DNA of 64,000 nt. Origin: Cladocopium goreaui. Its lineage: Eukaryota > Sar > Dinophyceae > Suessiales > Symbiodiniaceae. Under the pieces are notes generated by a model. It saw only the letters and a program-made list of their open reading frames with translations. It was not told the origin of the DNA and did no database searches. The stretch lies in the NCBI GenBank assembly GCA_947184155.2, contig CAMXCT020006636.1:62001-126000 (forward strand), in the 5' to 3' direction. Positions within the stretch are counted from its first letter, which is position 1; each line of letters starts with the position of its first letter. This document shows, one piece after another, positions 46,809 through 63,630 of the stretch. The translations under genes were made by a program, and so were the position numbers.

Positions 46809-46872
46809 CGCGAAGCGATCGCTGGTTTCCTTTGTGTTTCGCACTTTTCGCTCTTCCTCTGTAGCTTTCGCA

Positions 46873-47343
46873 ATGGCCTCTACCCCCGCGCTCCCTGCCC
46901 CGGGCGGGAACGCCTCGGCTGCCTTGGCCTTAGCGAACCCTACACAACCGGAGGAAATGGTAATCCACTCAGGCGCTGCTACAACTACAGAAGGTGATAT
47001 GAGTTACTTGGATGAAGAGTTTGACCCATGCCGCCAAGATCCACGCAGGAACATGCCAGGTGTCTTAGACTCAAGTGTTGAAATCAGTCAACTCAATACC
47101 ATCAACTTTAACACTGTTGATCAGCGTACCGCCAATTTGGCAGTGGTACAACAGGGTATTGATCCGAGCCTGGCGAATCATCTTATGGCTGCTCAACAGC
47201 AGGCATTGCAGAGTGAGGCAAATGTGCGCCACTCTGAGGTCATGGAACGTCAACGCATGGAGCTTGTGAGTGAAGCTCGAGATCAACTTGCAAGCGTCGA
47301 ACAACAAGCAGCGAAGAAATTTCCAGAAGAAACCTTTTGTTGA
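46873..47343 (+). CDS. Gag, N-terminal part (frame 1)
   Basis: The start at ATG 46873 gives MASTPALPAPGGNASAAL. The frame extends upstream into the LTR, so this ATG is a choice based on position after the leader. The second half is Gln/Glu/Ala-rich and likely coiled coil (VMERQRMELVSEARDQL). It ends at TGA 47341-47343 inside ACCTTTTGTTGA, where the coiled-coil reading continues in the -1 frame (next entry). A single missing T in the T-run would explain it; programmed slippage is the alternative. Confidence 0.7.
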   Translation: MASTPALPAPGGNASAALALANPTQPEEMVIHSGAATTTEGDMSYLDEEFDPCRQDPRRNMPGVLDSSVEISQLNTINFNTVDQRTANLAVVQQGIDPSLANHLMAAQQQALQSEANVRHSEVMERQRMELVSEARDQLASVEQQAAKKFPEETFC

Positions 47344-47966
47344 ACGAGCAGGCCGCCCAGGCGATGAGTGAGCAGAAATCTGCTCAACTGCAGGTCACAG
47401 CGCAGGATCATCGCATCAGGGAACTGAGTGCCGAACTGACTCATGTGGTCAACAATGCAGGTGTCTGGACATCGTCTGCGGAGAAGTCCAATGCTGACCT
47501 GCAGGCAGCACGTTCAGAACTTGCCGAGTACCGCACTCAGATTGATGCAATGAATCAACACGCTTTGAACATGCATAAGCTGGCCGAATCTCAGAAGAAG
47601 GACTTCGAGGCGGAGATTGAGAAGCTTCGGAAAGAGCAGAAAGAGTTCATCCGGAATCTAAAGTCTCAACCTCTGGAGGGAACTCCTGGACTCATGATCC
47701 ATTACGGTCCCGGAAAACCCATTCCACAATCCTCGAAGCCCAAGGGTCCAACCATTGTAGAGTTAGCTTCGGGAAGCAAGAAGCCTCAGCATTCATCAGA
47801 TGCTGACGATGAGCATTTTCAGGCAGAACCTTTGAAGCCACCGGGACTTCCCGGCGGTGGACCTCCAGGAGATGACGATGGTGACGATGACCACGACGAC
47901 AAAAGAGGTCGCAAAGACAAGAAACTGAGACCACAAAATGCAAATATTTGCACTTTAGGCACTTAA
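47337..47966 (+). CDS. Gag, middle part (frame 0), truncated by insert
   Basis: It continues the coiled coil (LNEQAAQAMSEQKSAQLQ) to an acidic Asp/Gly/Lys tail with DDGDDDHDDKRGRKDKK. Retrotransposon coding stops at 47924. The last 13 residues are read from the left inverted repeat of the insert. The basic RGRKDKK run is resumed at 50628 by DRKKDRKTSRGRSRR, showing that the two pieces were once one protein. Confidence 0.75.
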   Translation: MLNEQAAQAMSEQKSAQLQVTAQDHRIRELSAELTHVVNNAGVWTSSAEKSNADLQAARSELAEYRTQIDAMNQHALNMHKLAESQKKDFEAEIEKLRKEQKEFIRNLKSQPLEGTPGLMIHYGPGKPIPQSSKPKGPTIVELASGSKKPQHSSDADDEHFQAEPLKPPGLPGGGPPGDDDGDDDHDDKRGRKDKKLRPQNANICTLGT

Positions 47967-48339
47967 TGAATTTATAAGTATACTATAAGTTACTATTATC
48001 CTTCTAATATCTTGTTCAAATTGTTTTTTCAAAAATATTTTGTTATAAGTTCCACTAAATTTTTAGGTGAACTTATAACATAATAAGGAAAATATAAGCA
48101 AATATAGTAGAATATTAGTCAAAAATAAGCCAAAATAAGCGAAAAGAAGTGATAAGAAGTGAAATTTGATTTTTATGTGTGTTTGATAGATTCGCAGGAA
48201 TGTTGATTTTCGACGAAACAATATTGTCTCAGAGCACTACTTTTCTGACGAAACCTTCCTGAACAGGAATATGCTGCTAAAGAACAATTCTCTGAAGGCG
48301 CCTATTTGGAAAAAAAAATGGTAGGAAAAAAAAATTGTA

Positions 48340-48945
48340 GGGACAATTTCTCTGCAGGATACTTCCTGAAAAGGAAAAATTGTGTGGGGAATAGTTCTCT
48401 GCAGGATACTTCCTGGAAAGGAAAAAAAATGTAGGGAATAGTTCTCTGCAGGATACTTCCTGGAAAGGAAAAAAAATGTAGGGAATAGTTCTCTGCAGGA
48501 TACTTCCCGGAAAGGAAAAAAATTGTAGGGAATAGTTCTCTGCAGGATACTTCCTGGAAAGGAAAAATTGTGTAGGGAATAGTTCTCTGCAGGATACTTC
48601 CTGGAAAGGAAAAAAATTGTAGGGAATAGTTCTCTGCAGGATACTTCCTGGAAAGGCAAACATTTGTAGGGAATAGTTCTCTGCAGGATACTTCCTGGAA
48701 AGGAAAAAATTGTAGGGAATAGTTCTCTGCAGGATACTTCCTGGAAAGGAAAACATTTGTAGGGAATAGTTCTCTGCAGGATACTTCCTGGAAAGGAAAA
48801 CTTTTGTAGGGAATAGTTCTCTGCAGGATACTTCCTGGAAAGGAAAACTTTTGTAGGGAATAGTTCTCTGCAGGATACTTCCTGGAAAGGAAACAAAAAT
48901 GTAGGGAATAGTTCTCTGCAGGATACTTCCTGGAAAGGAAAATTT
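48340..48945. repeat. 45-47-bp satellite, about 13 copies
   Basis: TTCTCTGCAGGATACTTCC then TGGAAAGGAAAA and TGTAGGGAATAG, spaced 46-47 bp from 48351 to 48917. A long antisense open frame (Ser/Phe/Leu-rich) is an artefact of this repeat. Confidence 0.92.
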
Positions 48946-48949
48946 AGAA

Positions 48950-49680
48950 AATTCAGAAAATTCAGAAAAAATCAGAAAATTCAGAAAACTCAGAAATTTC
49001 AGACATTTCAGAAAATTCAGAAAATTCAGAAAATTCAGAAAATTCAGAAAATTCAGAAAATTCAGAAAAGTCAGAAAATTCAGAAAATTCAGAAAATTCA
49101 GAAACCTAGAAAATTCAGAAAATTCAGAATTTACAATTTAAATTAAAAGGAAAACAATTCAGAAAATTCAGAAAATTCAGAAACCCAGAAAATTCAGAAA
49201 ATTCAGAAAATTCGGAAAAGTCAGAAAATTCAGAAAAGTCAGAAAATTCAGAAAAGTCAGAAAATTCAGAAAATTCAGAAAATTCAGAAAATTCAGAAAA
49301 TTCAGAAAAGTCAGAAAATTCAGAAAATTCAGAAAATTCAGAAATTCAGAAAAGTCCAGAAAATTCAGAAACCAGAAAATTCAGAAAATTCAGAATTTAC
49401 AATTTAAATTAAAAGGAAAACAATTCAGAAAATTCAGAAAATTCAGAAAATTCAGAAAAGTCAGAAAAGTCAGAAAATTCAGAAAAGTCAGAAAATTCAG
49501 AAAATTCAGAAACCCAGAAAATTCAGAAAATTCAGAATTTACAATTTAAATTAAAAGGAAAACAATTCAGAAAATTCAGAAAATTCAGAAATTCAGAAAA
49601 TTCAGAAAATTCAGAAAATTCAGAAAATTCAGAAAATTCAGAAAATCCAGAAATTTCAGAAAATTCAGAAAATTCAGGAA
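48950..49680. repeat. AGAAAATTC nonamer repeat with higher-order blocks
   Basis: Tandem TTCAGAAAA units. The segment AGAATTTACAATTTAAATTA then AAAGGAAAACAATTCAG recurs near 49125, 49391 and 49535, marking larger duplicated blocks. Confidence 0.9.
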
Positions 49681-50159
49681 ATATTTATAGAGAAAAAAAA
49701 GGATAAGTAAGTATTTATAATAATGTCAAGTTAGGATTAATAATTCCCTGCGATTAATCAACCACCAAAATCTCAGCAAAAAAACCGTATGAACAAAGTA
49801 TGCGAAATCAAAAGAAAGTAAATTGTAGAACAATATGAACAATAAAACATAAATAGCAATTATAGAAAATACATTTTCAAAACAAAAAGCAAGCCAGCTA
49901 GCTTTAAATCTTTTACCAACAAAAAAATATAATAGAATATTTTCCAAATTAGGTATCCATCTTCATCCCTGAATTATGTAGTTTGGAAGTAGTAACCGAA
50001 GCCTCATCTGGGCAGTCGTATACAATTGAAGAAGACACATCAAAAGAGCAATTGTTCTTTCCAAGAAGCATCCTTTATATGTTTTTTTCCTTTTGCCTCT
50101 GAATGATTTCTCCACAGATGTACTTCAAGATTCTTTGTGTCACTCGCAGCCGCGCATAT

Positions 50160-50380
50160 TCCTGTAGAAGAACCATTTCCTGTAGAAGATAACTCCTGAA
50201 AAGCATTGTTCCTGAAAATGAAATCAATCTGAATAGAAAGATTCCTGTTAAGGATAGTTCCTGAAAAGGATTCATTCTGAATAAAAAAATCCTGAAAGGA
50301 TAAGTCCTGAAAAGGATAATTCCTGAAAAGGATAAATCCTGAAAAGGGTGATTTCTAAAAGGATGATGCCTGAAAAGAAT
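50160..50380. repeat. TCCTGAAAAGGATAA repeat
   Basis: Short palindromic-like units TCCTGAAAAGGA repeated with small changes. Related in sequence to the TTCCTGGAAAGGAA core of the 47-bp satellite. Confidence 0.8.
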
Positions 50381-50617
50381 GAAAAAAACAATGAAAAAAG
50401 GCAAGAAAAAATATTCCAAAGGAAACAAAAAGGTCGACAACTATTTTCAAAAAATATATAACAGAAAAATGCATCGTCTATAATCAATTCTGATCATCAA
50501 AAAAACATTGAAAAATAAGTGAAAATAAGTAAAAATAAAGAAAAAACACTTCTATGATAAGTTCATATAACTACTAATATCTTCATTAAGTGCCTAAAGT
50601 GAAAATATCTTCATTTT

Positions 50618-53600
50618 GTGGTCTCAGAAGATAGGAAGAAGGACCGCAAAACCAGTCGTGGCCGCTCGCGACGACGACGGCGAAGAGATCCTTCGTCCTC
50701 ACCTTCTTCATCATCCACATCCCCTACGACGTCAAGTTCGGATTCTGAGAGTTCCTTTGCGCGAAAGGTCAAAAAGGCCTTGGAGCGTTCTAGGACTAGT
50801 GATACTAAGGCCAAAGAGTCTGATAGGATCCTTGTACCTAAGTTCCCACAACCCGAAAATTATAGGAATTGGAGAATCCGAGTAAGGGATGCCATAATTG
50901 CTGCTTCTGCTAAACCCGACCTAGCCTTTCAGTGGGTGGAGGAAGTGTTCAGGACAGATCAGTCTGTCGATGCCTTGAAGGACTCAGGTCAATTCGTGAC
51001 CCTGGACGCAAAGCTCATGTCTTCGCTCACCAACATCTGCGAAGGGGACTTTGCACGGCAACTTGACATCTTTAAAGAAGAACAAGCCAAGTCAGGGACA
51101 CCAGCTAGGGGACGTCAAGCATTGCTCATGATTCATAAACACTTCAGTACAAGTAGGAAGCATGGTGCAGTGTACGACATTGAGGACCTCATGGCTGTTA
51201 CCTTGGTCAACGATGATCTCAGAGGTTTCATCACCCGATGGGACGCTGTGATCGCTGGAATGACTTCCGAGCCTGATATGATGTGGAAGCAAGCCTACTT
51301 TCACAACGCCATCAAGAACTTCAAGCCTCTCTCTCATGATCTGGCTGTGTATGATCGCACACCGGAGGGGGAACCCAACCGCTCTTATGATTTTCTCATG
51401 AAAGCTGCGAGGGACTACCTTGAGAGGAGACGTCTTGAGAAGATGCGCCAGGCAACCAAGAAGTCCGTTTCAGGTAAAAGAGATGCCACGCCGGCACCCA
51501 CGAGGCCTACATCCACGGGAAAGCCCACTGGCATTTGCTATGACTTCCAGGCTGGCAAGTGTACCAGGGGAAAGGATTGCCGATACAGACATGAAAAGGC
51601 AGACAAAGGAAAAGGTGGAGGTAAGAAAGGCAAGTCCAGGTCCAAGTCAAGGGGCGATGGTCGTTCTTTGTCTCCAGGACCTAGGAACCAGGTGTGCAAG
51701 TTTTGGAAGGCAGGCAAGTGTCAACGAGGTAATGACTGTGCTTTCCAACACCCACCAAAGCCTGCAGCTGCATCTACAAAAGATGACAAGCGTGGAAAGA
51801 GCCAGAAAAAGAAGAAGAAGAACAGAAAGAAGAAGGGCGATCGCTCCAGATCGTCAAGTCGAGGTTCCAATTCCTCGAAAGGCTCTCAGAGTCTCAAGGA
51901 CAAAGGGGGAAAACCATCTTCCTCTGGCTCAGCTGCAGTTTGCCTGATGCGCGCTCTGATGATGGTCGCAGTCGTCAACCCTTCGACCAGCACTCATCGC
52001 GTGCCGGAAGGCATCGCCTCTCCGCATTGTTTCAACCAGCATTTTGCCATGCCAGTTACACCCAATCGCACTGTTTCATTTGGGGGCAACGATGAAATCT
52101 TCGAAGTTCCCATTGAGCAAAATTGTAATTTATATCCGTGCCAAGCCAAACAACGAACGTTCAATCCAGTTCGCATCACCAAGGACGATCGTACTCGTAA
52201 AGATACGATCGAAGCACGAGAAAGTGATGCAATACTTGCAGCACAGATGTTGCAATCAGCTGTCTTTCGGGAGTTGCATGGTAAGCTTTGCAAATGCAGC
52301 TTTGAATGTGACAGTGATATCGGCTGTCGCCACTGCATCCGTTCTGATCTGAATGCATTGCCAGGACACATGCCTTCTCACCAGCGTAATGCATCCGCTG
52401 AAATCGCATGGATCGCTGACACCGGTAGTGCTCAGGACTTAGTGTGCAGCAAGATGATTCCCGATGACATTGTGTATCACTCTCATGAACCCCTTGAATT
52501 AATCACTGCAAATGGTTCTCAATCAGCTGACCAACAAGCTTCTGTTCACATTGATTGCATCGACAAAGAAGTTCATCCATATGTTCTTCCTGATACCCCG
52601 GCTGTAATATCGGTAGGGATGAGGTGTATTCAAGATGGATGGGATTTTGTTTGGAAAAGCTTTAGTCGCCCATATTTCAAGAAGAAAGATGGAACTAAGA
52701 TTAAACTTGAAGTCAAAGATTTTGTTCCTTATTTACCATCAAGAGATGGTCAGGTACCCGCTGCAGTAGGGATTCCGTTTTCATGGGACTCCACTGCCGG
52801 GAACGGAAAGCCTATCATCTCACCTATTCGAAGGTCTCGCATGTCAGCTGTCGGCACTGAGTCTGAGGACGAAGTCGAAGAGGTCGAAGTACCTTATGAG
52901 GCTTCCATCGCAGATGACGATGAAATCCCTGGACATGGTGACGATAGTCTCGAGGAGTTCTTCCCTGGTGAACTTGCGCCAGGACCTCCAGCAGCCATGA
53001 CGCCGGAAGGCGATGTGGGTTCGGAAGACGAAGCCGAAGCTCCTGAAGAACCAGTTGACGGTCGACTTCAGCTGCCTGAACCCCAACCAATTGATCGTGG
53101 TGAAGCTGCACTTCGAGACGAGGCCAGGACCCTTAGGCACATGATGACACACACCCCGAAGAATCCTTTTTGTGAAACATGCAAATGTGCAAAGATGTAC
53201 AAACCTACTAAACGTAGCAAAGGGGAATCTTTGACTGTGGAACCCAATAAGTTTGGGGATCACATCACTGGGGATCATCTTGTGACTAGGGATGCCAACG
53301 AACAATCAATCGATGGTGATAGAGTTGCAATGGTCATGAAAGATGTCGCTACGAATTTTCGTTGGATCTATCCTTCAGCTAGAAGTCATGCCAAGGATTG
53401 TGTTTTAGCTTTTAGGCATTTCATTGCACCTGGTGAAGAAGTCGGAGTGTTCTATTCCGATGCAGCACCATCCATCAAGCTCGCTTGTCGGGAAGTTGGG
53501 TGGAGACAGAACACTAGTGTTGCTTATGTCTCTAAGTCGAACGCAGTCGCCGAGAGGAATCTCAGGTCCGTGCTTGAAGGGACTAGAGTGAACCTTGAAC

Positions 53601-56600
53601 AGGCAGGGCTTCACCATTCCTATTGGAGTTATGCTGCACGACATTGGTGTATGGCACACAACATCCAGGACCACCCTGAAATCTTATCTCCTTGGGAGCT
53701 TCGTTTTGGGGAAAAGTTCAAGGGACCCAACATTCCTTTTGGGGCTCGCATTGACTACTGGACTGGACCGAAACTTAAACCCAAGAAAGATTTGCGTTTT
53801 GACCCAACTTCAAATCCAGGTGTCTTTTTGGGATATGCCATGCAACCAGGTTTCGTTTGGAGAAATGAGTTTCTTGTAGCATCATTGAAGGACCTTATGG
53901 AAAAGGAATTCAACGAATCTGTCCAAGTTGTTCGTGTCAATCAACTCACTGTACCTGATGAACCCTTTGTTTTCCCTTTGAAAGGAAGGTATAAGGCCAT
54001 TAGGGAAGGTCTATACGAGTCTCTTAGCCTTGAAGCTCCACCAGATCCAAAGAAGATGGACGCTCAAACAATTGAAGACTTGGTTGCCCCAAGGAAAGCT
54101 GTTGAGCGAGGACCGGTGGAGGGCGAAGAGGAGTTTGAACAAATGATGCGTGAAGTTGGACTTGAATCCGATGACATCGAGGTAATTGACCCCAAAACTG
54201 GAAAATCAGAATTTATCTCAAAGGATGACCCTTCGTACTACGATGCTAGTGGTTTTAAGGGTAGACGATACAAAGGTTCCTCCAAACCCAAGGACATTCC
54301 AACATTCCTTTGGCGGGGGGCCTCTAAAGCGGCTAGAGAAAGGGCCAAGCGTGAAGCCTTGTTGAAAGAGGCAGCTGAAAAGCATGATGCTGCAGTTGCC
54401 AAAGAACGTAAGTACAACAGGGTTATAGAGCGTTTTGCCAATTCAGCTGTCAAAGAATCCAAGAGTGACGAACCATCAGATGATTTCATTCCCGCAATGC
54501 CAGTCACCTTCAATCCGGGGGGCTCGCATGGTGGAAACCATTGCCACAGAGACAAGCTTAAGGATCAGTCAGAGCTCATGTGCTTTCATTTTTCCAATGC
54601 ACTCGTGGCAAGACCCGTTGGACAGAAGGAGATCAACAATACTCCGGCTGCCCAAGCTGCACTCGATAAGGAATGGAATAACCTTACTAGTAAGGGTGCA
54701 TGGGATTATTCCACTGTTAGGGAATGGGATGATGTTTCAAGGGAAGCTATCAAGAACAAGACCAAAGTTCATGTAGGCAAAATCTTCGAGATTTGTGTCG
54801 AGAAAGGAAGTGAGCTACCGCAGGGTGACCCCATGCGCAAGTTTAAGGGTCGCACCGTTTTCCAAGGAAACAACGTGAAGGACGAGGCGGCTGATGTTGC
54901 TTTGTTCGCGGAGCTCGGAAGTTCACCGGCCAACATGGAGGCAGGAAAAGCATTGGATGCTTATGGCTCCATGCCGGGGAACCGGACATCACAAGGTGAT
55001 GGTAAGCAAGCTTACACCCAGGCGTTGATGCAAGGAATTTTGACTTGGATCAGATTGCCAAGGAACCGTTGGCCGAAGGAATGGATTGGTGTGTTTAAGG
55101 ATCCAGTTGTTCTTCTTATTTTGGCATTGTATGGTCACCCTGATTCGGGGGGTCTATGGCAACGCCACTGTGAGAAAGCACTCTATGCAGTTGGATTTCA
55201 CCCACTCTATCCTGAATGTTGGCCTTCAATGTTTTGGCATCCGAAATTGAAGTTGTTGCTTGGTGTATATGTTGATGACTTCAAGATGTCCGGACCTTCC
55301 AAAAACATTGACGAAGGGTGGAAGTTGATTTCTTCTCAGATCGACATGGATACTCCAGAAGATGCCGGCAGATACCTTGGATGTGAACATGTGTTCAAAC
55401 AGAACGTCAAACTTGATGTAAGCGCTCATCCATTTGCTCATGTCTTCGATGCTAGCATCCCAGATCCTTCCAGTAAGCCAGCCAGCCCGGCCCGCCGAAC
55501 AAAGGACTACTGGGAGCATATGCCAGAACTTGGAGTTTGTGTTCATCATCACCTGCAACCTCGCAAGAAGTTCCAGGACAAGCCGAAGGACGATACATCC
55601 TTCCGGGCGGGAACGCACCGGCTAACCGTGTGTGAACCTTTCCAAACCCAAGATGAACCCAAAGAATATGTTCATGATATGGGATCTCAAAACCCAACTG
55701 GACTTCCATTTTGGTGGACGGGATCAACCTACTTCGTGGACGAATCCATCAAAGAACCCTCAAAAGTTTTGGCAGCTGCTAAGAAGATAAGAGACAAGTC
55801 AGGAGCAAAGAAAGCGGCTAGGGCACAAGGATTTACTTTTCTTGATGAACTTGAGCAACATAAATCCAAGTGCATGACAAAGAATGTCAACACAGTCGAA
55901 TATGACATGCGACAGTTCTTACAACAATGTCTTGACCGCTATGTTGAACTAGCAGGACCAAACATTAAGTTCAAGAAAGTTTCAACTCCGTTCCCAGATG
56001 ACAAAATCGCACGTCCCATCATGGACGAAGCAGAAGCTCGGGGGGAACTCCAGCCCATAGCATCACGTGTGCTAATGAAAGTGCTGTTCGCAGCACGAAT
56101 GGCTAGGTTCGATCTTCTCCGTGCTACTCAGGGTTTAGCAAGTAGGGTTACAAAATGGTCACCTGATTGCGACAAGAGTCTTCACCGATTGATGTGTTAC
56201 ATACACACAACCCTTGATCGTACAATGGTTGGTTTCGTTGGGGACCCACCTGAGGCTTGCAAAACATGGTTGTTTGCAGATTCAGATCATGCTGGGGAAC
56301 ATGACAACAGATCTACAAGTGGTTGCCTCCTTGCTTTGGTAGGACCAAACACGTTTTATCCACTCACAGCTTTTTCAAAGAAGCAGACTTCAACGGCTAT
56401 GTCATCGACAGAGGCTGAAGTCACGGCGGCAAACCTTGCGTTGCGTGCTGTTGGATTACCTTCCTCCTGCCTGTGGTCAGTCATACGTCACGCGGGGGGA
56501 GATAGCACCCAACAAAAGCCGTCCCGCAGAGTGGAAACTCGTGCCAAAAACCCCAAAGAGGATTATTGGGAGCACAGTCCATTCACCAACCAAGTTACCA

Positions 56601-59600
56601 GAGTTCATGTCAAACCCCGAAATAAACTGTATAACCCAATTGATTCGGATTGTCCAGTGAACCTTCAGGGATTGGCAAGGCAAAGGTACACCATCATGAA
56701 AACCAAAACTGGTGATGTTGAATTTGATTTGACATGGGACTGGACGACTCCTGATGCTGACATGATCTATGACTTCGAATGCACTGGAAAAACTGTCTTT
56801 AGGATTCCTGGACCAAATGAAGTTGATTATGGGGTTGAGTCACGGGAAATCAGATCTGCTTTAACTGATTTTAAGCACACGGGATCTGAAAAGCGGGGGG
56901 ATGAGAGTGTGTACATGGCAGGACCAGGTAGTCTTGAGGTCATTTTCCTTGAGGACAACCAAGCGACCATTCGCATTCTTGAGAGTGGTAGGTCACCGTC
57001 ATTTAGGCACACTGACAAAACCCAAAGGTTGAATTTGTCATGGTTGTCTGAACAGTTCAAACGAAAACATTTCAGACTTGTCTATGTTGGGTCATCGCTT
57101 CAAGCGGCAGACATTCTCACCAAGCCTTTTACCAACTCCGAGAAATGGGAATCAGCTCTGCGATTGATGGGTATTTCATCACAGCCCCTTCCACGGAAGG
57201 AGCCACAAAAGATGAAAGCCTGCGCAGGGGAACCTGCACCTTCAACAGTGTCGGGATCCCAGCAACGCGCAGGGGAACCTGCTTGCCCTTCAGTGGCGTC
57301 TCATAGCAGGGTACTTATTGAATTTTGTTGTGGACCTGATTCAAAGCTTGGTGATCGTTCAAGGAAGCATTCAAAAGATTGTTATGTCGTCAGATGCACA
57401 GAAGAAAGAGATGTTACATCTAGATCGAACAGAATGGACATTCGGAACGAAGTTGTTCAAGCAATTGAGAGTTCAACTATACAACCTTGTCCAGTTTTGA
57501 TTTGGATTAGCATTCCCTGCGCTGGTGGCACAACATGGTCATATGTGAACTTGCAACATGAATCAGCCAAACTCAAAGTTGAATATCATCGACATGTTTT
57601 TGAAAAGATATGGTCATCAATGGTCGATTTTCTCAATCTTGTTCGTCATTTGAGTCCCAAGATTGCAATTGAATGGCCAGCTCATTGCATCTACTGGAAG
57701 TTTGACCGAGTTGAAAAGTTTTGTGGAAAACATCAGCTCATTAAAGTCACATTTGATGGATGCATGGTTGGTATTGTCAACAAAGAAGGTGAATCTATAA
57801 AGAAACCATGGGCTATTTTAACTGATTGTGATTCAATCGTCACTGCATTTGATGGACTGTCATGTGATGGTAGTCATAACCATGTTCAAGGCAGAGGTCA
57901 TGACTTGAAGGAAACTGAGTCGTATTCCTTTCAGATGACGGACATGATCCATCGAGCTTTCATTGCAGCGACCAGCTCGAAACCCGAACTGACGACTTCT
58001 ACTGCACTCTGCGCTGTTTCGCTTTCTACATCATCTACCATGGCTTACTTTCGCCGCTTTCCACAAGCAGAGGTCGAGGAGGCAGACTATTCCGCTGCTG
58101 CGGATGCTGCTGGCATTCGACCCGGGGAACCGGAGTCCATTGAGGATGATGAGACTTTGGGGCCCAATGGAAAGGCGTGGTTTGCGTTGACTGGGAGCAT
58201 TTTTGGCTCTGTCACGCAGTGTCGTGTGGTAAACGAAGCTGATGTGATTTCGGATTTGACATCCATCATGGGGAACACTGACCACTCGCTGTTGGCCAAA
58301 GGCTACCTTCGCGACGTCAGCCCCGAAGACGCGAAGCTCCTCGACGGCGTTTCCAGCTTCTCACTCAGAGGCATGGTATGCCCAGGGGAACCTGAGGCCA
58401 ACTTCATCTTTGCCGGAGATTCTTCGATGGCACTTGTGGATATGGTCGACGGGTTCGCTTCTACGCGCAGGAACATCGGCGAGTACATCAAGGAGAAGCC
58501 GGATCTCCTCCCACCAGGCCGCAAGACGGTCTGGCACGATCTCAAATGGGGTCGTGGGCTGCCTGACATCATCAAGGGCGTCGAGCACTCTCTTGCATGT
58601 CTGCAGCGGAGGGGAACCTCTCGCCCATCTGTCATCGTCATCTCTTATGCTGGCAACGACATTTTTGGGAACTACGGCTTCCTCCACTGTGATTGGCTTG
58701 ACAAGGAGATGGCATGCTACTCCCAGAAGCGCCGTGACGCAGCAAACGATCTCATGGAGGAGAGGGTCAACACCCATTTCTCCGCCTTGAACGACCTCGT
58801 GAAGCTGACGACACGTGCCGACGTTGGGAACATCGTCCTTATCATGCCGTGGTACGGCAGGGGATATGGGTTGCACCCCGACTATGACCGTCAAATGATT
58901 CGCGAAGCTGAGGCTTTGAGGAAGCGCGGACTCTGCGTCCTCGATGCCACGTCGCTTATCAAGTGTACTACACGATATGACGGCCAGCACATGGAGAATT
59001 CGGAGCATAACCGCCTCCAGTGCATTCGCTTCTATTCTGAAGCCGGCGCGCTTGGATATCATCTTTTCCGGCTTCGATCATGCAAGCCATTGATCGAGCT
59101 GGCTGAGATGAAGAAGCGCCGCGAGGAATCGCTGGCCAACCCCCTTCCTGAGAACAACCCCGAATGGGAAGAGATGGAAGAAGTGTTGGTTTCCATGGAC
59201 GTGGACGGTTGGGAGATCTATGTGAAGGAGACCCGACCCAAAGGGCAAAGGCTTCCCAATGAAGTTGACCCCGCACGTGCACAAGTCGCACAGGCTCCTG
59301 CGGTGCAGGATGATGCCACTGTGGCCTCATCGAACTGGCAGCTTTTGGAGTCAGTGGACGCTGCACTGCCGGGGGAACCCGAGCACTTTGAACCTCATGA
59401 GATCAAAGAGCCGGAGATGGATGGTGAGCTCATTGACGCCATCCTCAAGCCCTTTTTGGATCGGTTGCCTGGTGTTTCCGACGAGCGCGACATTGACGAG
59501 CCGGACGCTGACGGGGAGATTGTCTTCCGAGAACCCATCGTCGGCGGCTCAGCATCAATGTTTAGCCAGCGGAAGCTGCGCTCCCATCTGATGAACAAGA

Positions 59601-61249
59601 TCCATGCTGTGGACTTCAGATTGGATGGTTCTGGCGTAGTGAACATCTTGGACACCGACGTCACACGTGACCCTGCCAAGCTCGAACTTCGGCAGGAATC
59701 CATGCAGCAGACCGAAGATGGTGCAATCATCATTCGTCGCTTTGACCTGACGGATGAGGAGAAGCATCGTCAGATGGAACGGGAGATCTTTGAGGAGCCC
59801 AAGACCGCCGAGGAGAAACTTCGCGCGGGTGACCCTGCTGCCACTGTCCAGATCGTATCGAAGGCCAAGTCGAAGGCGGCTTCCTCATCCGAAGCGGCAT
59901 CATCTTCGACCGGCATCGCCCAGGTGATCGGGGACACTGTCAGTCAATTCATCAAACCCGAGATGAGGGATCAGGCCACGATGATTCAGCCGAAGCCTGT
60001 CCCGAAGATCCCGAAGATCTCAACGGCGACGGGAACGTCTCCCATGGCGTCCCCAAAGCCCAGTCCGCCACCAACTCCGAAGAGTGCAACTGCGTCTCCC
60101 AAGCCGGAGCCACCTGCACTCCCAGCGGAAGCTGCGGACCAACCTATGCCCAAAGCTTTGCCCTTTAAGGCACCGCCTGCATCGTTGACAACCACCTCAC
60201 CGAGGGCACCTCCGCAGAAGTCATCGGCGCCTGCAGCTGCGGCTTCGTCGGAGCCTGCCCCGAAGATGGCCAAGAAGGAGCCGCCTATGGCAAGTGCTCC
60301 TCCCCCGGGAACGGGTGGACCTCAGCCTCCGGCTGAACCGCCCTTGCGACCACAGGGATATCCCAAGTGGTACTTCTACTCCCCGGGAACGGGCGAGCGC
60401 AGGGAATTCATCGTTCGATGTACCGACCTGCCAGGCCTGAGGGACCTTGGAAGACTCAGTCATGATGATTTCAAATTTTCAAAGAGGGTGACCGGGCTTC
60501 TCCGTGGGTATGATCACAAATTCCTCGAGGCACATCATCGCCACATTCCTCCTGAATTTGATGAGGAACTGTACGTGAACTTTGAGTCCATGTACACGTA
60601 CCTCCGAAAGCGGCATCGTGCTCAGCTTTCGCGACAGGACCTGTACCTGATTCTTCGAACTCAGGACCGGTTCATGTGCCGCATTCAGGCTGGAATTGTC
60701 GGGGAACTGACAACCATGGACATGCCATACCGCATCACCCACGTGAAGGCCTGTCAAGGCCATGACCAGTCGCTCATTGACAAGGTGGGAACGGCTCCAT
60801 TGGTCAAGCAAATCATCTCGCTTGACTACCAGTTCACGGTCGAGGACTTGAAGAAGGGATTCTACCCCAGGGTTCCTATTTATCCTCACCTGGCGGAAGC
60901 CGAGGTCCCAGAAGAGTTTAAGGTTATTTACCATTACACTTCATGGGACTCCCTCCAGCAGATCATTTGCACGGGGATTTTTCCAGGGGCCACCTCATGC
61001 AAGGGTCATGCTTATATGACCCGCCATGCGCCTTGGGAAATCGAAGGCAAGGATCCAGGCGTCAGAACGAACAGACCCTGTGCATCGCGATCGACACCGA
61101 TTGTGCTCTGCACTATGGTCTTCGCCTGGTGGAAACCTTGGCCGGTGCACTCATCACTGAGGACTGGGTGCCCAATCATTGCCTCATCTACGCATTCGAT
61201 TGCGAGAAGTCGCAATACCTTTGGGCGAACCATGGCTACAACGGCGTGA
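50618..61249 (+). CDS. Giant Gag-Pol plus cargo polyprotein (about 3540 residues)
   Basis: One uninterrupted frame. The first ten nucleotides belong to the insert, so the true product starts upstream in gag. Order by residue of this frame: Arg/Ser-rich basic stretch (1-60), Gag capsid-like region (70-290, with PKFPQPENYRNWRIRV), two CCCH fingers (307-378), aspartic protease (DTG at 601-603), integrase (841-1000), RT (YVDD 1551-1554), RNase H in two parts (1880-1945, 2108-2185), methyltransferase-like (2225-2440), SGNH-like (2595-2800), Pro/Ser-rich linker (3125-3250), Tpt1/KptA-like (3270 onward). From about 61076 the frame is no longer the biological one; the last 58 residues are out-of-frame. 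Copia polyproteins are usually about 1300-1500 residues. Confidence 0.9.
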   Translation: MVSEDRKKDRKTSRGRSRRRRRRDPSSSPSSSSTSPTTSSSDSESSFARKVKKALERSRTSDTKAKESDRILVPKFPQPENYRNWRIRVRDAIIAASAKPDLAFQWVEEVFRTDQSVDALKDSGQFVTLDAKLMSSLTNICEGDFARQLDIFKEEQAKSGTPARGRQALLMIHKHFSTSRKHGAVYDIEDLMAVTLVNDDLRGFITRWDAVIAGMTSEPDMMWKQAYFHNAIKNFKPLSHDLAVYDRTPEGEPNRSYDFLMKAARDYLERRRLEKMRQATKKSVSGKRDATPAPTRPTSTGKPTGICYDFQAGKCTRGKDCRYRHEKADKGKGGGKKGKSRSKSRGDGRSLSPGPRNQVCKFWKAGKCQRGNDCAFQHPPKPAAASTKDDKRGKSQKKKKKNRKKKGDRSRSSSRGSNSSKGSQSLKDKGGKPSSSGSAAVCLMRALMMVAVVNPSTSTHRVPEGIASPHCFNQHFAMPVTPNRTVSFGGNDEIFEVPIEQNCNLYPCQAKQRTFNPVRITKDDRTRKDTIEARESDAILAAQMLQSAVFRELHGKLCKCSFECDSDIGCRHCIRSDLNALPGHMPSHQRNASAEIAWIADTGSAQDLVCSKMIPDDIVYHSHEPLELITANGSQSADQQASVHIDCIDKEVHPYVLPDTPAVISVGMRCIQDGWDFVWKSFSRPYFKKKDGTKIKLEVKDFVPYLPSRDGQVPAAVGIPFSWDSTAGNGKPIISPIRRSRMSAVGTESEDEVEEVEVPYEASIADDDEIPGHGDDSLEEFFPGELAPGPPAAMTPEGDVGSEDEAEAPEEPVDGRLQLPEPQPIDRGEAALRDEARTLRHMMTHTPKNPFCETCKCAKMYKPTKRSKGESLTVEPNKFGDHITGDHLVTRDANEQSIDGDRVAMVMKDVATNFRWIYPSARSHAKDCVLAFRHFIAPGEEVGVFYSDAAPSIKLACREVGWRQNTSVAYVSKSNAVAERNLRSVLEGTRVNLEQAGLHHSYWSYAARHWCMAHNIQDHPEILSPWELRFGEKFKGPNIPFGARIDYWTGPKLKPKKDLRFDPTSNPGVFLGYAMQPGFVWRNEFLVASLKDLMEKEFNESVQVVRVNQLTVPDEPFVFPLKGRYKAIREGLYESLSLEAPPDPKKMDAQTIEDLVAPRKAVERGPVEGEEEFEQMMREVGLESDDIEVIDPKTGKSEFISKDDPSYYDASGFKGRRYKGSSKPKDIPTFLWRGASKAARERAKREALLKEAAEKHDAAVAKERKYNRVIERFANSAVKESKSDEPSDDFIPAMPVTFNPGGSHGGNHCHRDKLKDQSELMCFHFSNALVARPVGQKEINNTPAAQAALDKEWNNLTSKGAWDYSTVREWDDVSREAIKNKTKVHVGKIFEICVEKGSELPQGDPMRKFKGRTVFQGNNVKDEAADVALFAELGSSPANMEAGKALDAYGSMPGNRTSQGDGKQAYTQALMQGILTWIRLPRNRWPKEWIGVFKDPVVLLILALYGHPDSGGLWQRHCEKALYAVGFHPLYPECWPSMFWHPKLKLLLGVYVDDFKMSGPSKNIDEGWKLISSQIDMDTPEDAGRYLGCEHVFKQNVKLDVSAHPFAHVFDASIPDPSSKPASPARRTKDYWEHMPELGVCVHHHLQPRKKFQDKPKDDTSFRAGTHRLTVCEPFQTQDEPKEYVHDMGSQNPTGLPFWWTGSTYFVDESIKEPSKVLAAAKKIRDKSGAKKAARAQGFTFLDELEQHKSKCMTKNVNTVEYDMRQFLQQCLDRYVELAGPNIKFKKVSTPFPDDKIARPIMDEAEARGELQPIASRVLMKVLFAARMARFDLLRATQGLASRVTKWSPDCDKSLHRLMCYIHTTLDRTMVGFVGDPPEACKTWLFADSDHAGEHDNRSTSGCLLALVGPNTFYPLTAFSKKQTSTAMSSTEAEVTAANLALRAVGLPSSCLWSVIRHAGGDSTQQKPSRRVETRAKNPKEDYWEHSPFTNQVTRVHVKPRNKLYNPIDSDCPVNLQGLARQRYTIMKTKTGDVEFDLTWDWTTPDADMIYDFECTGKTVFRIPGPNEVDYGVESREIRSALTDFKHTGSEKRGDESVYMAGPGSLEVIFLEDNQATIRILESGRSPSFRHTDKTQRLNLSWLSEQFKRKHFRLVYVGSSLQAADILTKPFTNSEKWESALRLMGISSQPLPRKEPQKMKACAGEPAPSTVSGSQQRAGEPACPSVASHSRVLIEFCCGPDSKLGDRSRKHSKDCYVVRCTEERDVTSRSNRMDIRNEVVQAIESSTIQPCPVLIWISIPCAGGTTWSYVNLQHESAKLKVEYHRHVFEKIWSSMVDFLNLVRHLSPKIAIEWPAHCIYWKFDRVEKFCGKHQLIKVTFDGCMVGIVNKEGESIKKPWAILTDCDSIVTAFDGLSCDGSHNHVQGRGHDLKETESYSFQMTDMIHRAFIAATSSKPELTTSTALCAVSLSTSSTMAYFRRFPQAEVEEADYSAAADAAGIRPGEPESIEDDETLGPNGKAWFALTGSIFGSVTQCRVVNEADVISDLTSIMGNTDHSLLAKGYLRDVSPEDAKLLDGVSSFSLRGMVCPGEPEANFIFAGDSSMALVDMVDGFASTRRNIGEYIKEKPDLLPPGRKTVWHDLKWGRGLPDIIKGVEHSLACLQRRGTSRPSVIVISYAGNDIFGNYGFLHCDWLDKEMACYSQKRRDAANDLMEERVNTHFSALNDLVKLTTRADVGNIVLIMPWYGRGYGLHPDYDRQMIREAEALRKRGLCVLDATSLIKCTTRYDGQHMENSEHNRLQCIRFYSEAGALGYHLFRLRSCKPLIELAEMKKRREESLANPLPENNPEWEEMEEVLVSMDVDGWEIYVKETRPKGQRLPNEVDPARAQVAQAPAVQDDATVASSNWQLLESVDAALPGEPEHFEPHEIKEPEMDGELIDAILKPFLDRLPGVSDERDIDEPDADGEIVFREPIVGGSASMFSQRKLRSHLMNKIHAVDFRLDGSGVVNILDTDVTRDPAKLELRQESMQQTEDGAIIIRRFDLTDEEKHRQMEREIFEEPKTAEEKLRAGDPAATVQIVSKAKSKAASSSEAASSSTGIAQVIGDTVSQFIKPEMRDQATMIQPKPVPKIPKISTATGTSPMASPKPSPPPTPKSATASPKPEPPALPAEAADQPMPKALPFKAPPASLTTTSPRAPPQKSSAPAAAASSEPAPKMAKKEPPMASAPPPGTGGPQPPAEPPLRPQGYPKWYFYSPGTGERREFIVRCTDLPGLRDLGRLSHDDFKFSKRVTGLLRGYDHKFLEAHHRHIPPEFDEELYVNFESMYTYLRKRHRAQLSRQDLYLILRTQDRFMCRIQAGIVGELTTMDMPYRITHVKACQGHDQSLIDKVGTAPLVKQIISLDYQFTVEDLKKGFYPRVPIYPHLAEAEVPEEFKVIYHYTSWDSLQQIICTGIFPGATSCKGHAYMTRHAPWEIEGKDPGVRTNRPCASRSTPIVLCTMVFAWWKPWPVHSSLRTGCPIIASSTHSIARSRNTFGRTMATTA
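51536..51739 (+). other. Two CCCH zinc fingers in Gag
   Basis: Residues 307 onward: C-x7-C-x5-C-x3-H (CYDFQAGKCTRGKDCRYRH). Residues 360 onward: the same spacing (CKFWKAGKCQRGNDCAFQH). They replace the CCHC knuckle usual in copia Gag and should bind RNA. Lys/Ser-rich linkers surround them. Confidence 0.85.
52400..52580 (+). other. Aspartic protease active site
   Basis: EIAWIADTGSAQDLV places the catalytic DTGS at residues 601-604. It corresponds to the DSGAS/DTGA motif of copia proteases and should cleave the polyprotein as a dimer. Confidence 0.8.
53110..53720 (+). other. Integrase (HHCC plus DDE)
   Basis: Zinc-binding H841-x3-H845 and C852-x2-C855 (LRHMMTHTPKNPFCETC), then catalytic D886 (ITGDHLV), D948 (FYSDAAPS) and E979 (NAVAERNLRSVLEG). 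The last two are 31 apart, a little shorter than the common D-35-E. Confidence 0.85.
54840..55420 (+). other. Reverse transcriptase
   Basis: Catalytic Asp at residue 1461 (QGDGKQAYTQAL, aligning with the copia DVKxAFL block) and YVDD at 1551-1554 (LLGVYVDDFKMSGPS), then GRYLGCEH. The palm motifs are intact. Confidence 0.87.
55490..55600 (+). other. DYWEH module, copy 1 (between RT and RNase H)
   Basis: Residues about 1628-1655: RRTKDYWEHMPELGVCVH then HHLQPRKKF. Similar to copy 2 at 56545-56640. Not part of a standard copia polymerase. Function unknown. Confidence 0.6.
56255..57165 (+). other. RNase H, interrupted by a ~160-residue insertion
   Basis: Part 1 has ADSDHAGEHDNRSTSG (D1888) and FSKKQTSTAMSSTEAE (E1932). 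Part 2 has EDNQATIRILESG (D2113), RHTDKTQRLNLSWL and ADILTKPF. In ordinary copia RNase H, the STEAE and EDNQ blocks are separated by only about 20-25 residues; here by about 180, including DYWEH copy 2. Confidence 0.82.
56545..56640 (+). other. DYWEH module, copy 2 (inside RNase H)
   Basis: Residues about 1978-2007: NPKEDYWEHSPFTNQVTR then VHVKPRNKLYNP. It shares DYWEHxP, a VxH dipeptide and a PRxK motif with copy 1. Confidence 0.6.
57290..57970 (+). other. Methyltransferase-like Rossmann domain
   Basis: VLIEFCCGPDSKLGD (residues 2232-2246) looks like a SAM-binding motif I. CPVLIWISIPCAGGTTW (C2301) resembles the PC motif region of cytosine-C5 enzymes, and KIAIEWPAHC follows. The pattern is suggestive rather than diagnostic; it could be a degenerate or different Rossmann enzyme. 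It lies directly after RNase H in the same frame. Confidence 0.5.
58397..59060 (+). other. SGNH/GDSL hydrolase-like domain
   Basis: Block I FIFAGDSSMALVDM (GDS, Ser2602), block III VIVISYAGNDIFGNYG (G2679-N2680-D2681) and block V DGQH (D2788-x2-H2791) appear in the order and spacing of SGNH hydrolases (about 187 residues from Ser to Asp). All four family-defining residues can be placed. Esterase domains of this family are known in ORF1 of some LINEs, not as a usual part of copia elements. Substrate unknown. Confidence 0.62.
60425..61220 (+). other. Tpt1/KptA-like RNA 2'-phosphotransferase domain
   Basis: KRVTGLLRGYD (from residue 3289) aligns with the LSxxLRH block, LILRTQDRFMCRIQ with the NDKQRF region, THVKACQGHDQ (Q3380) with the RAxQGHS motif, IYHYTSWDSLQQII with YHGT, and DPGVR with VGxR. 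After the frame change, GLRLVETLAGALITEDWVP matches the C-terminal half. The His of LRH is Gly here, so catalysis is doubtful. Tpt1 removes an internal 2'-phosphate from spliced tRNA using NAD+; a role in this element is unknown. Confidence 0.58.
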
Positions 61250-62625
61250 AGAAGTACCTTCGGGACAAGGCCTCCGAGAACGCTCTCACTTGGCAGGAGA
61301 ACGAGGCTCGGAAGGGCACTCCCAACTACGACGAACTTGAAAGGTACGAGGTTTCGGACCTGGAGGTGTTGAAGAACATGTTCGTGAATGAGTACGATCA
61401 GTGGAAGGATGTCATCACTCTGCGACGTCCGCTCATTTACAAGGAAGTTCCGACACCATATCCTGTCGTCGATGAGTTGCTCCCGAAGTTCAAGCAAAGG
61501 CCGCTCAACTTCACCAATCTCCTTTGTGTGGCACGCAAGCCGACAGCAACTGCTGCTGGCTTCGACATCGCCCCTGACAACGCGCGGGAACGCCGTTCTG
61601 ATCGCTTCGATCAGGAGGCATTTGACCCTTCCGCGGAGGGGAACCTCACGCGCTGGCGGTATGTCTCAATGTTGGCTATGCCAGAATTGACATGCCCCCG
61701 GTGCAGGAAGATCTTTCCTGAGGGGATGTTGGTGTGCCTCGCATGCGGCTTGTCGCTGGCGACTATGTCCGACATGCGCCGTGCGTGCCAGGTGTTTCGC
61801 TTGGAAGAGTTGGCGGAGAAGCTGGGCTTCGAGCTGACGTTGGACCTTCTTGGCGACGACGACGTAGCAGGCACCACCCAAGGTGCCAAGCAGATCAGAT
61901 CTGCTGCGGCAGTCCTCAAAAATCACGCCCGTTCATATATGAAACAGGCGAGAAAAGCTGGACTGACCTTGCTACAGCGTCTGGGAACGGACGCCCATTA
62001 CGCCTTTAATTGTGCGGTCCAGGACCTTACACCTCGGTGTATGCATTGGATTACAGTTTTGGGCAATGTGGTGCTTCCCTCCATCAAGCGCACGCGAGAG
62101 GAGATCCGAACTGGAAAGATTCGGCAGTACAAAGCGCGTATGTGCATGGTCGCATACGAGGAGGAACAGATGAAGACGATCATCGTGGATGATCATGTCC
62201 TCATCTGGTACAAGAACCGCTTTTACAGAGCCAACCAGTTCGCGGCCGCCTATGCCTTGATTCCGGTGGCCGAGCGTTTCGAGGTCTTGAGCGTCGCCAA
62301 CACGACGTTCCAATCCCTTGCGTTGTCCAAGCAGGATGTGTATGCCGACATTCTCAGCTATGTCGACGACATCTTGCGCCCCCTCACGGAGGCCAAGGAC
62401 ACGGAAGGCGGAAGCCGACCCCTGCCTGCAACGAAGCAGCAGAACCCAGATGTCACCAGGTCTTCGCGTCCTGGCTATGGTTCTCATCAGGGGCCCACTC
62501 ATGGCTACAGTCAGCAGGAATGGAATGACTACTACAATCAGTGGACTGACCAGGAGTGGGAAGAGTGGCGCCGTCGAAACCAAGGCCATCAATATCGGGA
62601 TCGACGTTGGTCGGGCTATCGCTGA
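61078..62625 (+). CDS. C-terminal part of the polyprotein in the -1 frame
   Basis: The frame is open from 60943, but the protein-like reading begins near 61078 with LCIAIDTDCALHYGLRL, completing the Tpt1-like domain. A further C in ACCCTG would restore one frame with the upstream ORF. Later: a zinc ribbon C-x2-C...C-x2-C (CPRCRKIF and CLACG, about 61693-61749), helical segments, and a Trp/Gln/Arg-rich tail (EWNDYYNQWTDQEWEEW) ending in TGA at 62623-62625. It may be a mutation, an assembly error or programmed frameshifting. Confidence 0.75.
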   Translation: MCIAIDTDCALHYGLRLVETLAGALITEDWVPNHCLIYAFDCEKSQYLWANHGYNGVKKYLRDKASENALTWQENEARKGTPNYDELERYEVSDLEVLKNMFVNEYDQWKDVITLRRPLIYKEVPTPYPVVDELLPKFKQRPLNFTNLLCVARKPTATAAGFDIAPDNARERRSDRFDQEAFDPSAEGNLTRWRYVSMLAMPELTCPRCRKIFPEGMLVCLACGLSLATMSDMRRACQVFRLEELAEKLGFELTLDLLGDDDVAGTTQGAKQIRSAAAVLKNHARSYMKQARKAGLTLLQRLGTDAHYAFNCAVQDLTPRCMHWITVLGNVVLPSIKRTREEIRTGKIRQYKARMCMVAYEEEQMKTIIVDDHVLIWYKNRFYRANQFAAAYALIPVAERFEVLSVANTTFQSLALSKQDVYADILSYVDDILRPLTEAKDTEGGSRPLPATKQQNPDVTRSSRPGYGSHQGPTHGYSQQEWNDYYNQWTDQEWEEWRRRNQGHQYRDRRWSGYR

Positions 62626-63490
62626 GGCACCGCGGAGGGGAACCTCTCGCCTGGTGGATTTATCTTCATCTGAGGCGGGGCATTTTCCTCTCAATGCACG
62701 GTGTCGCACAGCGGAAGCTGTTGCCTTTTCGGATTTAATTCGGTTAGGCGACTAGCTTCATTTTGCACAGGTGGGTGAGCGATTCCACCATCATTTCCAA
62801 CACAAGTGTGCTAAGTCGGAATTTTTGCCAATCTAGTCAAATTCACAAAAAGTTTCATTAATGCTTTGAATGCATATAATTTGAAGCAGGCATTTGGCAC
62901 TCATCTTATTCTTGCCATGATTCCTTCTTGCATAGCACACGGCTGGTAGTTGCATGCACCGCAGAGCGGAAGCTCTTGCCTTGCGAAGTTAAGGCAGCTT
63001 TGAAGCATTTCTAAAGGCTTCCCTGCGGGTTCACACCAAAACATGAATTCAGCTTTTGCCATAATTCAAATTGCTTTGCTTTGGCAATCTCCTGGGCGAC
63101 CACAAGAACTTTTGTTGCCGCGTGGAAACGCTGGCCTAGTATTGGGCCAAGACCTTTTCTTTCCACCTTGCATGTTCGACCACAAGCCCAGTCGAGCCTA
63201 AAATAAAGCTGAATGCACCCAACCGAATTGACTTGCACTGCATCCGTCTTTCAATGTACTTGGAGTCCGATTGAATGGATTGCATTCGCATCTGCACTTG
63301 TTCGTCAATCCTTGCATACCTGAGGTGAGAACACAATGGACGAAGAAAGGATAGGCCGTGGACGGGTTCTGGTTTGGTTGTTGTTGTTGTGTTTTCTAAA
63401 TTGTTCTAACATAATGGCATCCCTTACTAGTCTGTACATAGCCTAATTTGCAGCTTCATCTCCTGTGCGGTAATTACACTGCACGGGGGG
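62626..63490 (+). other. 3' untranslated region of the retrotransposon
   Basis: No coding continuation. It holds at least four of the GGAA-loop hairpins (62635, 62708, 62963, 63120). The run GGGGGG at 63485-63490 directly before the 3' LTR may serve as a short polypurine tract. Confidence 0.6.
63485..63490 (+). promoter_or_regulatory. Possible polypurine tract
   Basis: Six G immediately upstream of the 3' LTR. Short compared with usual tracts, but correctly placed to prime plus-strand synthesis. Confidence 0.45.
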
Positions 63491-63630
63491 TGTTGTTGCA
63501 CAGTCCTAGTGTAGATACCACTGTTTTCACCTCTACTTGTTGTATGCTGTGGCTCAAGAAACAGTGCATGCTGCAGGGTAGTATCTGTACTTATTTTGTG
63601 GTACGTTGTGGTTTGTACCCTGTTTCTACA
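63491..63630 (+). repeat. 3' LTR (140 bp)
   Basis: Same sequence as 46654-46793 by visual comparison. Followed by ATATA, the right target duplication. Confidence 0.93.

Follow-up and report, generated by a model that had tools for sequence, protein, structure and literature searches.

Why should the sense strand of a retrotransposon carry the same small hairpin over and over again, in coding regions and 3' untranslated region (UTR) alike? The question is raised by a stretch of 64,000 nucleotides (nt) from the dinoflagellate Cladocopium goreaui (assembly GCA_947184155.2, contig CAMXCT020006636.1, positions 62,001 to 126,000 of the forward strand), called the window throughout, in which a long terminal repeat (LTR) retrotransposon of ~17 kb occupies positions 46,654-63,630 between mutually identical LTRs of 140 base pairs (bp). 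An earlier note on this DNA had described about 27 dispersed GGAA-tetraloop mini-hairpins in the element and suggested either an RNA role or a mobile mini-element. We find ~28 GGAA hairpins of one strict geometry on the sense strand, in large excess over all controls and conserved between copies at the nucleotide level. As an explanation we favour dispersed packaging or assembly signals that would be read by the element's own Gag as the candidate partner, which we judge to have an even chance of being correct.

Read from the loop outwards, the hairpin consists of an upper stem of 4 bp closed by GGAA, one unpaired nucleotide in the 3' arm and a lower stem of 3 bp, followed nearly always by C. 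Between 46,903 and 63,131 there are 168 GGAA sites; an unbroken run of 4 or 5 Watson-Crick pairs closes the loop at 36 of them, and a run of exactly 3 at 9. The comparison with the other 255 tetraloops that the earlier note had proposed places GGAA first with its 36 stems of at least 4 Watson-Crick pairs, followed by TACT with 12 (the unit of a local tandem array itself reads AGGA-TACT-TCCT) and CAGA with 6. This array of 47-bp units at 48,328-48,942 holds 10 of the 36 GGAA stems and one of the 9 three-pair stems, while another three-pair site, 48,308, lies at its edge. Its GGAA stems were discarded as family members, as they come without the lower stem and lie inside an apparent nested insertion, so that the idea of a spread throughout the retrotransposon stands for the dispersed hairpins of the element and falls for the stems at 48.3-48.9 kb, which belong to a minisatellite. 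The 26 dispersed sites with at least 4 pairs that remain bear out the number given before. The insertion itself, ~2.66 kb at 47,925-50,627, interrupts gag, is flanked by inverted repeats of 56 bp (89% identical) and contains 47-bp and 9-bp minisatellites, including the GGAA stems at 48.4-48.9 kb; the protein of a relative matches through this point without extra length in 21 other places, and the segment has the appearance of either a nested insertion or an intron with inverted repeats.

When the bulged geometry is scanned with G·U pairs allowed, 21 of 114 GGAA sites in 49,701-64,000 are complete, against at most 3 for every other loop, and the other bulge positions and stem divisions examined in this range fit 7 GGAA sites at most. 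Over the whole element without the nested insertion, which leaves 120 GGAA sites, 24 hairpins are complete, and one form with its bulge shifted (3+bulge+4) together with three near misses brings the set to ~28 (Table 1). The distribution over these 120 sites is split: 20 have no non-Watson-Crick position, 9 have one, 4 have two and 87 have at least three. At the 27 sites tabulated for flanks and stems (61,310 left aside), C stands 3' of the stem in 25 and 5' of it in 20. Within the 5' arm, C takes the middle position of the lower stem in 22 and G the second position from the loop in 20; the bulge is T in 12, A in 9, C in 4 and G in 2. Beyond such preferences the stems share no sequence with each other, as had been claimed; the accompanying claim of a fixed loop needs amending, as three UGAC hairpins share the geometry. 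The hairpins occur in all reading phases (10/5/3 among 18 tabulated) and account for four of the five GGAA sites of the 3' UTR, again in line with the earlier description. A search of 46,654-63,630 against Rfam gave two matches, with E values of 0.76 and 0.88, far under the gathering scores.

The set cannot be a product of chance. When codons of the polyprotein frame were shuffled synonymously, a control likewise proposed before, 2,000 shuffles gave a mean of 0.44 and a maximum of 4 hairpins, compared with 15 observed; for the second open reading frame (ORF2) the figures are 0.01 and 2. A first-order Markov model of 50,618-63,630 gave 0.08 in 500 runs, compared with 21 observed. Twenty 10-kb stretches drawn at random from this genome, with 7.5 kb of N in total, contain 2,078 GGAA sites on both strands, of which 2 fit. 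Host DNA of the window (1-46,902) carries no comparable set, with one of 291 GGAA sites reaching at least 4 pairs, and the restriction of GGAA to the sense strand was confirmed by the antisense TTCC loops of the element, none of whose 94 sites has at least 3 pairs. Evidence for the sense RNA from the pairs themselves is modest: the complete-site scan admits G·U only, and the strand inference accordingly rests on a mismatch-neutral count: of the 9 sites that depart from Watson-Crick pairing at a single position, four show a sense-strand G·U, none A·C and five another mismatch.

Selection maintains the hairpin structure at the nucleotide level, in the coding part as well as in the 3' UTR. For the coding part the window was compared with nine other copies, seven covering 53.4-58.2 kb and two covering 52.4-61.3 kb; 18 of the 19 submitted hairpins (three near misses among the 19) were covered, and a position was counted once if any copy differs. 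Variable positions amount to 0/252 in stems, 0/72 in loops (0/324 together) and 1/18 in bulges, compared with 75/1,045 in the 30-nt flanks and 602/8,522 in the rest, and third codon positions up to 60,900 vary at 0/101 positions within hairpins versus 448/2,736 elsewhere (Fisher p ~1e-10 for all positions and ~3e-8 for third codon positions). Of six hairpins that have this geometry by chance and carry other loops, taken as a control, four were changed in these copies (54,207, 54,739, 56,237 and 58,768) and two unchanged. In the 3' UTR, nine copies (from ten stretches requested) that are 85-89% identical to the window over ~1.2 kb show one change in 56 stem positions, none in 16 loop and 8 flanking positions (together 1/80) and one in 4 bulges, while the remainder has 258/781 variable and 97 gapped positions (p 5e-12). 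The sole stem change, C to T, turns a C-G pair into U·G. Because the hairpins are conserved at third codon positions and in the 3' UTR, coding constraint does not explain them, and the bulge, fixed in place and free in its base, looks like a structural requirement. The earlier claim of an RNA role gains from this nucleotide-level conservation, from the free bulge base and from a GNRA-mimicking loop at a few further sites. An alignment of 23 hairpins (A2) shows 100% pairing, which is a description rather than proof, as its rows were chosen for pairing.

These further sites are three sense-strand hairpins of the window with the same geometry and a UGAC loop, two of which also agree in flank and outer stem (GCN...NGCC); this strict form occurs twice in 385 kb of random DNA. 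GGAA, GCAA and GCGA belong to GNRA and UGAC to UNAC, whose loops mimic the GNRA fold according to the accessible part of PMC5311481; both names stand for fold classes and imply neither dispersal nor a common bulge and flank. The UGAC loop alone is weaker evidence because UGAC hairpins recur in random stretches: three of these (L011:8556, L017:7100 and L024:4245) contain a near-same palindromic UGAC hairpin with a different stem, apparently a separate repeat family. A second element family of the genome (L043, 6.5 kb, with L045 as a 99% copy) carries four strict hairpins on the sense strand, with the loops AUGC, GCAA, GCAA and GCGA, of which AUGC fits neither fold class, and one strict hairpin on the other strand.

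Reverse translation of 88 related protein clusters (one representative per cluster, 12 shuffles in 20-residue blocks) yields 224 GNRA-compatible sites compared with 46.9 in local shuffles and, at the protein level only, 105 UNRC-compatible sites compared with 47.9; 54 of the 88 clusters lie above the shuffle mean and 31 more than three standard deviations above it. A geometry without bulge gives 120 GNRA-compatible sites too, a count without shuffle baseline, and outside the clade, near-duplicate proteins included, 324 of 929 sites of the bulged geometry are GNRA-compatible versus 43-165 of 447-1,285 for six other geometries. Protein sequences, TNGC/TNAC peptides among the evidence, hint at family-level preferences for GAAA, GCAA, GNGA, UNAC and UNGC loops, GAAA being predicted for families of the P0023 type, GNGA for P0019, UNAC for P0047 and UNGC for P0038. 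Given the UGAC sites, the loops of the second family and the GNRA excess in the 88 clusters, the loop requirement may be a fold rather than a fixed word. We tentatively extend this to a giant dinoflagellate copia-like superfamily whose members would carry dozens of one-bulge hairpins with a family-specific GNRA-type loop as a self-recognition code for their own Gag, a generalization that is possible and at present rather doubtful. If true, such a loop code would let many related elements in one nucleus package their own RNA only.

In the packaging reading, ~28 copies of one structure (a 7-bp stem with 3' bulge, a loop of GNRA fold and a 3' C) would act along the sense RNA as cis signals, recognized by the shape of their backbone, the fold of the loop, the bulge and the flank and not by stem sequence. 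The reader would be the element's own Gag, most plausibly its CCCH-finger region. Number and spread of the hairpins argue for many weak cooperative contacts, by which the ~17-kb element RNA would be selected and condensed into a particle; related families with other GNRA-type loops would each possess a matched Gag, and loops specific to a family would fit co-evolution with a self-encoded partner.

Several observations weigh against this interpretation. The copies are related, so that variable positions are not fully independent events, and no compensatory change was seen at any one site between copies, which are too alike for it. Conservation is weaker in the second family: in five further copies of it, stem and loop vary at 2/72 positions versus 47/560 in the flanks (p 0.10), one loop changes from AUGC to ACGC and one stem change breaks a pair. 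No strict sense-strand hairpin was found in the relatives L022, L031, L032 and L033, the segments of L022 being 25-45% identical, and L044, from another family, has one doubtful case with a UAAA loop and no demonstrable hairpin set. In the accessible part of PMC4974528, internal sequence of Ty1 and Ty3 is described as dispensable for retrotransposition when proteins are supplied in trans, and dispersed internal signals are for this reason not the rule for LTR elements.

Folding in longer context speaks against the interpretation as well. As isolated 19-mers, 11 of 12 hairpins fold as drawn, the twelfth (52,000-52,018, offset by one base) with 5 bp, and with 20 nt of context on either side the upper-stem probability is at least 0.90 in all six sites examined. 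With 40 nt on either side the upper stem exceeds 0.5 in three of six sites, and with 100 nt the upper stem does so at 5 of 27 and the lower stem at one of 27, other pairings being preferred at most sites. A protein or co-transcriptional folding would have to hold the hairpin. All four hairpins of the 3' UTR have a possible competing helix downstream that pairs with the 3' arm, possibly a switch or a second hairpin in the case of the partners at 62,650-63,150; across the 27 sites, the excess of such helices is not significant (P 0.10). For the 63,124 hairpin, a shorter downstream partner seems to be retained in a strongly changed haplotype.

Among the alternatives, a host RNA-binding protein that reads the hairpins as a multi-copy regulatory element for export, localization, stability or translation control survives best, even if we regard it as unlikely. 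Bulged hairpins bound by host proteins are known, and such a reader would account for hairpins in coding parts and 3' UTR alike and for the conserved flanking C and preferred bases without requiring Gag. The near absence of the hairpins from random genomic DNA, however, gives no sign of a host network, and the GCAA, GCGA and AUGC loops of the second family, with hints of further loops from reverse translation, are better accommodated by a self-coded, co-evolving partner. It is improbable that the hairpins mainly serve RNA-RNA architecture, in which loops would dock into receptors of the same or a second genomic RNA for compaction or dimerization. GNRA docking is a classic tertiary contact and the loops are of GNRA or GNRA-mimic type, but docking alone leaves the exact bulge position and the flanking C (25/27) unexplained, and within the element the second loop base is G in UGAC hairpins just as in GGAA hairpins.

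We consider it quite improbable that the hairpins are substrates of an RNA enzyme, either through dimethylation of the GGAA loop or through an element-encoded methyltransferase-like or Tpt1-like enzyme. The precedent is h45 of small-subunit ribosomal RNA, a short GGAA-loop hairpin modified by KsgA/Dim1, and some relatives carry the Tpt1/KptA domain PF01885. Yet h45 is a single site without a bulge at this position, the GCAA and GCGA loops of the second family are no GGAA substrate, and three frames scanned with Pfam at E 0.001 contained no Dim1-like domain. A signal at the DNA level, in single-stranded complementary DNA (cDNA) or as cruciforms for integration, recombination or escape from silencing, appears very improbable: conservation was measured in DNA, and one cDNA strand would also produce strand asymmetry, but sense G·U rather than A·C accounts for four of the nine single-deviation sites (small numbers), the new stem change in the UTR yields G·U, and GNRA and UNAC form a fold class of RNA in the part of PMC5311481 available. 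Practically negligible is a mobile mini-element or a mutational by-product of short template switches producing palindromes, which would explain many near-identical shapes within one element, keep the frame with an insertion of 12 or 21 nt and agree with gaps in relatives at some linkers (e.g. 57,274), but is contradicted by gap-free alignments at the integrase-like and reverse transcriptase (RT) hairpins among the relatives examined, by unrelated stems, by stems and loops much more conserved than their flanks, and by a fixed loop and bulge that template switching does not produce.

Gap-free alignment at the integrase-like and RT hairpins deserves a closer look, as it speaks against the mini-element idea of the earlier note. 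At hairpins 53,556 (integrase-like block) and 54,978 (RT block), relatives align without a gap whether or not they encode the hairpin (9 rows of 91 matches and 9 of 112 at the two sites, plus 12 relatives), from which we infer that these two hairpins arose by substitution in place. Insertion was rejected as an origin at such conserved sites, and it would be possible in variable linkers (57,274, 59,571 and others), where relatives have gaps. In proteins P0002-P0006, 17 of 43 changed sites stay hairpin-compatible compared with ~7.4 expected from their own substitutions; P0009, P0010 and P0012 (0/6, 0/11 and 0/12, with ~0 expected) are uninformative. Upon reverse translation, GGAA ranks first among the 256 loops in the window frame, P0003, P0005, P0006, P0007, P0008 and P0121, ties for first in P0009 (4 sites only), and comes second in P0004 and P0023, 4th in P0032, 67th in P0057 and 125th in P0010; a narrower count against 19 other loops gives a weaker GGAA signal.

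Returning to packaging by Gag, the nearest parallels come from viruses. Packaging signals of single-stranded RNA viruses of the MS2 type are described, in the part of PMC6281560 available, as many dispersed stem-loops with free stems that share aspects of the loop motif and a bulged base, much like the hairpins of the element. The MS2 signals differ in having a bulged A in the 5' arm and (x)xYA as their loop motif; in the element, the bulge lies 3' and may be any base, and the complete form is reached by 24 of 120 GGAA sites. Neither host nor element class nor coat protein is related. Hepatitis B virus (HBV) resembles the element in being reverse-transcribing and in carrying dispersed stem-loops (RGAG loops) in its pregenome that are read by the core protein, with three conserved sites studied in a 3.2-kb genome as far as the accessible parts of PMC8677749 and PMC7612645 go, compared with ~28 of strict geometry in an LTR retrotransposon. 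Many weak cooperative contacts are also the proposed mode of action of dispersed packaging signals in MS2 and HBV (PMC6281560, PMC8677749). Ty1 and Ty3 are LTR retrotransposons too, and Gag packages their genomic RNA; Ty1 needs ~380 nt from its 5' end and 357 nt from its 3' end according to the part of PMC4974528 available, whereas conserved structures span the coding body here. Among the titles and abstract openings listed in searches of open-licence literature on dinoflagellate retrotransposons, GGAA tetraloops and packaging signals, none describes the motif, and the accessible part of a paper on dinoflagellate retrotransposons (PMC5890265) makes no mention of stem, hairpin or gag.

RNA choice by LTR retrotransposons is known mainly from terminal signals of yeast elements, and ~28 strictly built body hairpins kept by selection would give dispersed RNA recognition a clear natural example beyond viruses. 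The motif of loop, bulge and flank is sharp enough for tests with short synthetic RNAs, and if families differ by loop, they would form a natural series in which the evolution of an RNA-protein code could be followed.

As for the carrier, its main frame encodes 3,543 amino acids, in which one model, that of CCCH zinc fingers (PF00642), exceeds the Pfam cut-off. The copia-type RT (RVT_2, PF07727) is a weak match (E 7.7e-4, 19.6 bits, cut-off 31.6), the Tpt1-like part a weaker one (E 0.38), and the window frame gave no Pfam match for an integrase. The CCCH fingers and the Tpt1-like domain had both been named in the earlier note as candidate binders of the hairpins. Among the best 120 of 128 protein relatives, PF07727 is present in many, PF01885 in some and the integrase model PF00665 in one, P0045; this relative and a motif familiar from integrases are the grounds on which we take the block in the main frame to be integrase-like. 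The same 120 include proteins named from Symbiodinium and Polarella. In the genome searched (1.17 Gb, 6,202 contigs), 40 of 226 candidate matches to a 1.8-kb segment of the element were scored; they comprise the window itself and 39 further places, with identities of 96-98%. Several other copies have a single open frame of up to ~4,400 amino acids. In the window copy, the Tpt1-like region is divided between two overlapping frames at 60,943-61,249.

Table 1. LTRs, reading frames and sense-strand hairpins of the element (window positions).
Feature	Position	Strand	Remark
5' LTR	46654..46793	+	140 bp, identical to 63491-63630
Hairpin 1 (4+GGAA+4+bulge+3), N-terminal gag	46900..46918	+	
Hairpin 2	47413..47431	+	
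Hairpin 3, one G·U	47672..47690	+	
gag-pol-type frame (CCCH fingers, integrase-like and copia-type RT regions, extra domains)	50618..61249	+	
UGAC-loop hairpin (loop 51,261), same geometry, GCN...NGCC outer stem, gag	51254..51272	+	
GGAA hairpin	51999..52017	+	
UGAC-loop hairpin, same geometry, weaker (G·U pairs)	53276..53294	+	unchanged in 2/2 covering copies
GGAA hairpin (53,556), one G·U, in conserved motif AERNLRS, presumably integrase-like	53549..53567	+	
GGAA hairpin	54526..54544	+	
GGAA hairpin (54,978), in conserved RT-region motif MPGNRTS	54971..54989	+	
GGAA hairpin, 3+bulge+4 form	55603..55621	+	bulge base different in copy L002
GGAA hairpin	56526..56544	+	
Variant GGAA hairpin, 5-bp upper stem, 6/7 pairs	57222..57240	+	
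Variant GGAA hairpin (57,274), 2-nt bulge	57267..57286	+	
GGAA hairpin	58119..58137	+	
GGAA hairpin	58380..58398	+	
GGAA hairpin	58606..58624	+	
GGAA hairpin	59118..59136	+	
GGAA hairpin	59367..59385	+	
GGAA hairpin (59,571)	59564..59582	+	
UGAC-loop hairpin (loop 59,830), same geometry, GCN...NGCC outer stem	59823..59841	+	unchanged in 2/2 covering copies
GGAA hairpin	60120..60138	+	
GGAA hairpin	60301..60319	+	
GGAA hairpin	60379..60397	+	
GGAA hairpin, one G·U	60888..60906	+	
Second frame, overlaps end of gag-pol-type frame	60943..62625	+	
GGAA hairpin, one mismatch, 6/7 pairs	61124..61142	+	
GGAA hairpin (61,310), one G·U beside loop-closing pair, outside Watson-Crick-only list	61303..61321	+	
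GGAA hairpin, 3' flank G not C	61633..61651	+	
3' UTR GGAA hairpin	62632..62650	+	
3' UTR GGAA hairpin	62706..62724	+	C to T at 62712 in one copy retains G·U
3' UTR GGAA hairpin	62961..62979	+	
3' UTR GGAA hairpin (63,124)	63117..63135	+	bulge T to A in one copy
3' LTR	63491..63630	+	140 bp, identical to 5' LTR

Outside dinoflagellates, no relatives were found in a viral contig collection. A genome contig collection contained two short contigs encoding relatives of this copia family, both from bacterial metagenome-assembled genomes (L032, RGVM01000345.1; L033, JAPKCZ010000429.1), without a 7-pair GGAA hairpin and with one 6-pair site in L033. Protein P0120, named from an uncultured Marinobacter, is also a relative, and the bacterial occurrences are likely contamination. 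Upstream of the element, at 43,986-45,038, lie 126-bp tandem repeats in about 7 near-identical units (7.2 copies, 99%). In one random stretch (L023, ~4,500-7,000, minus strand), 34 of 44 TACAA words stand within 4-bp hairpins, apparently a tandem hairpin array.

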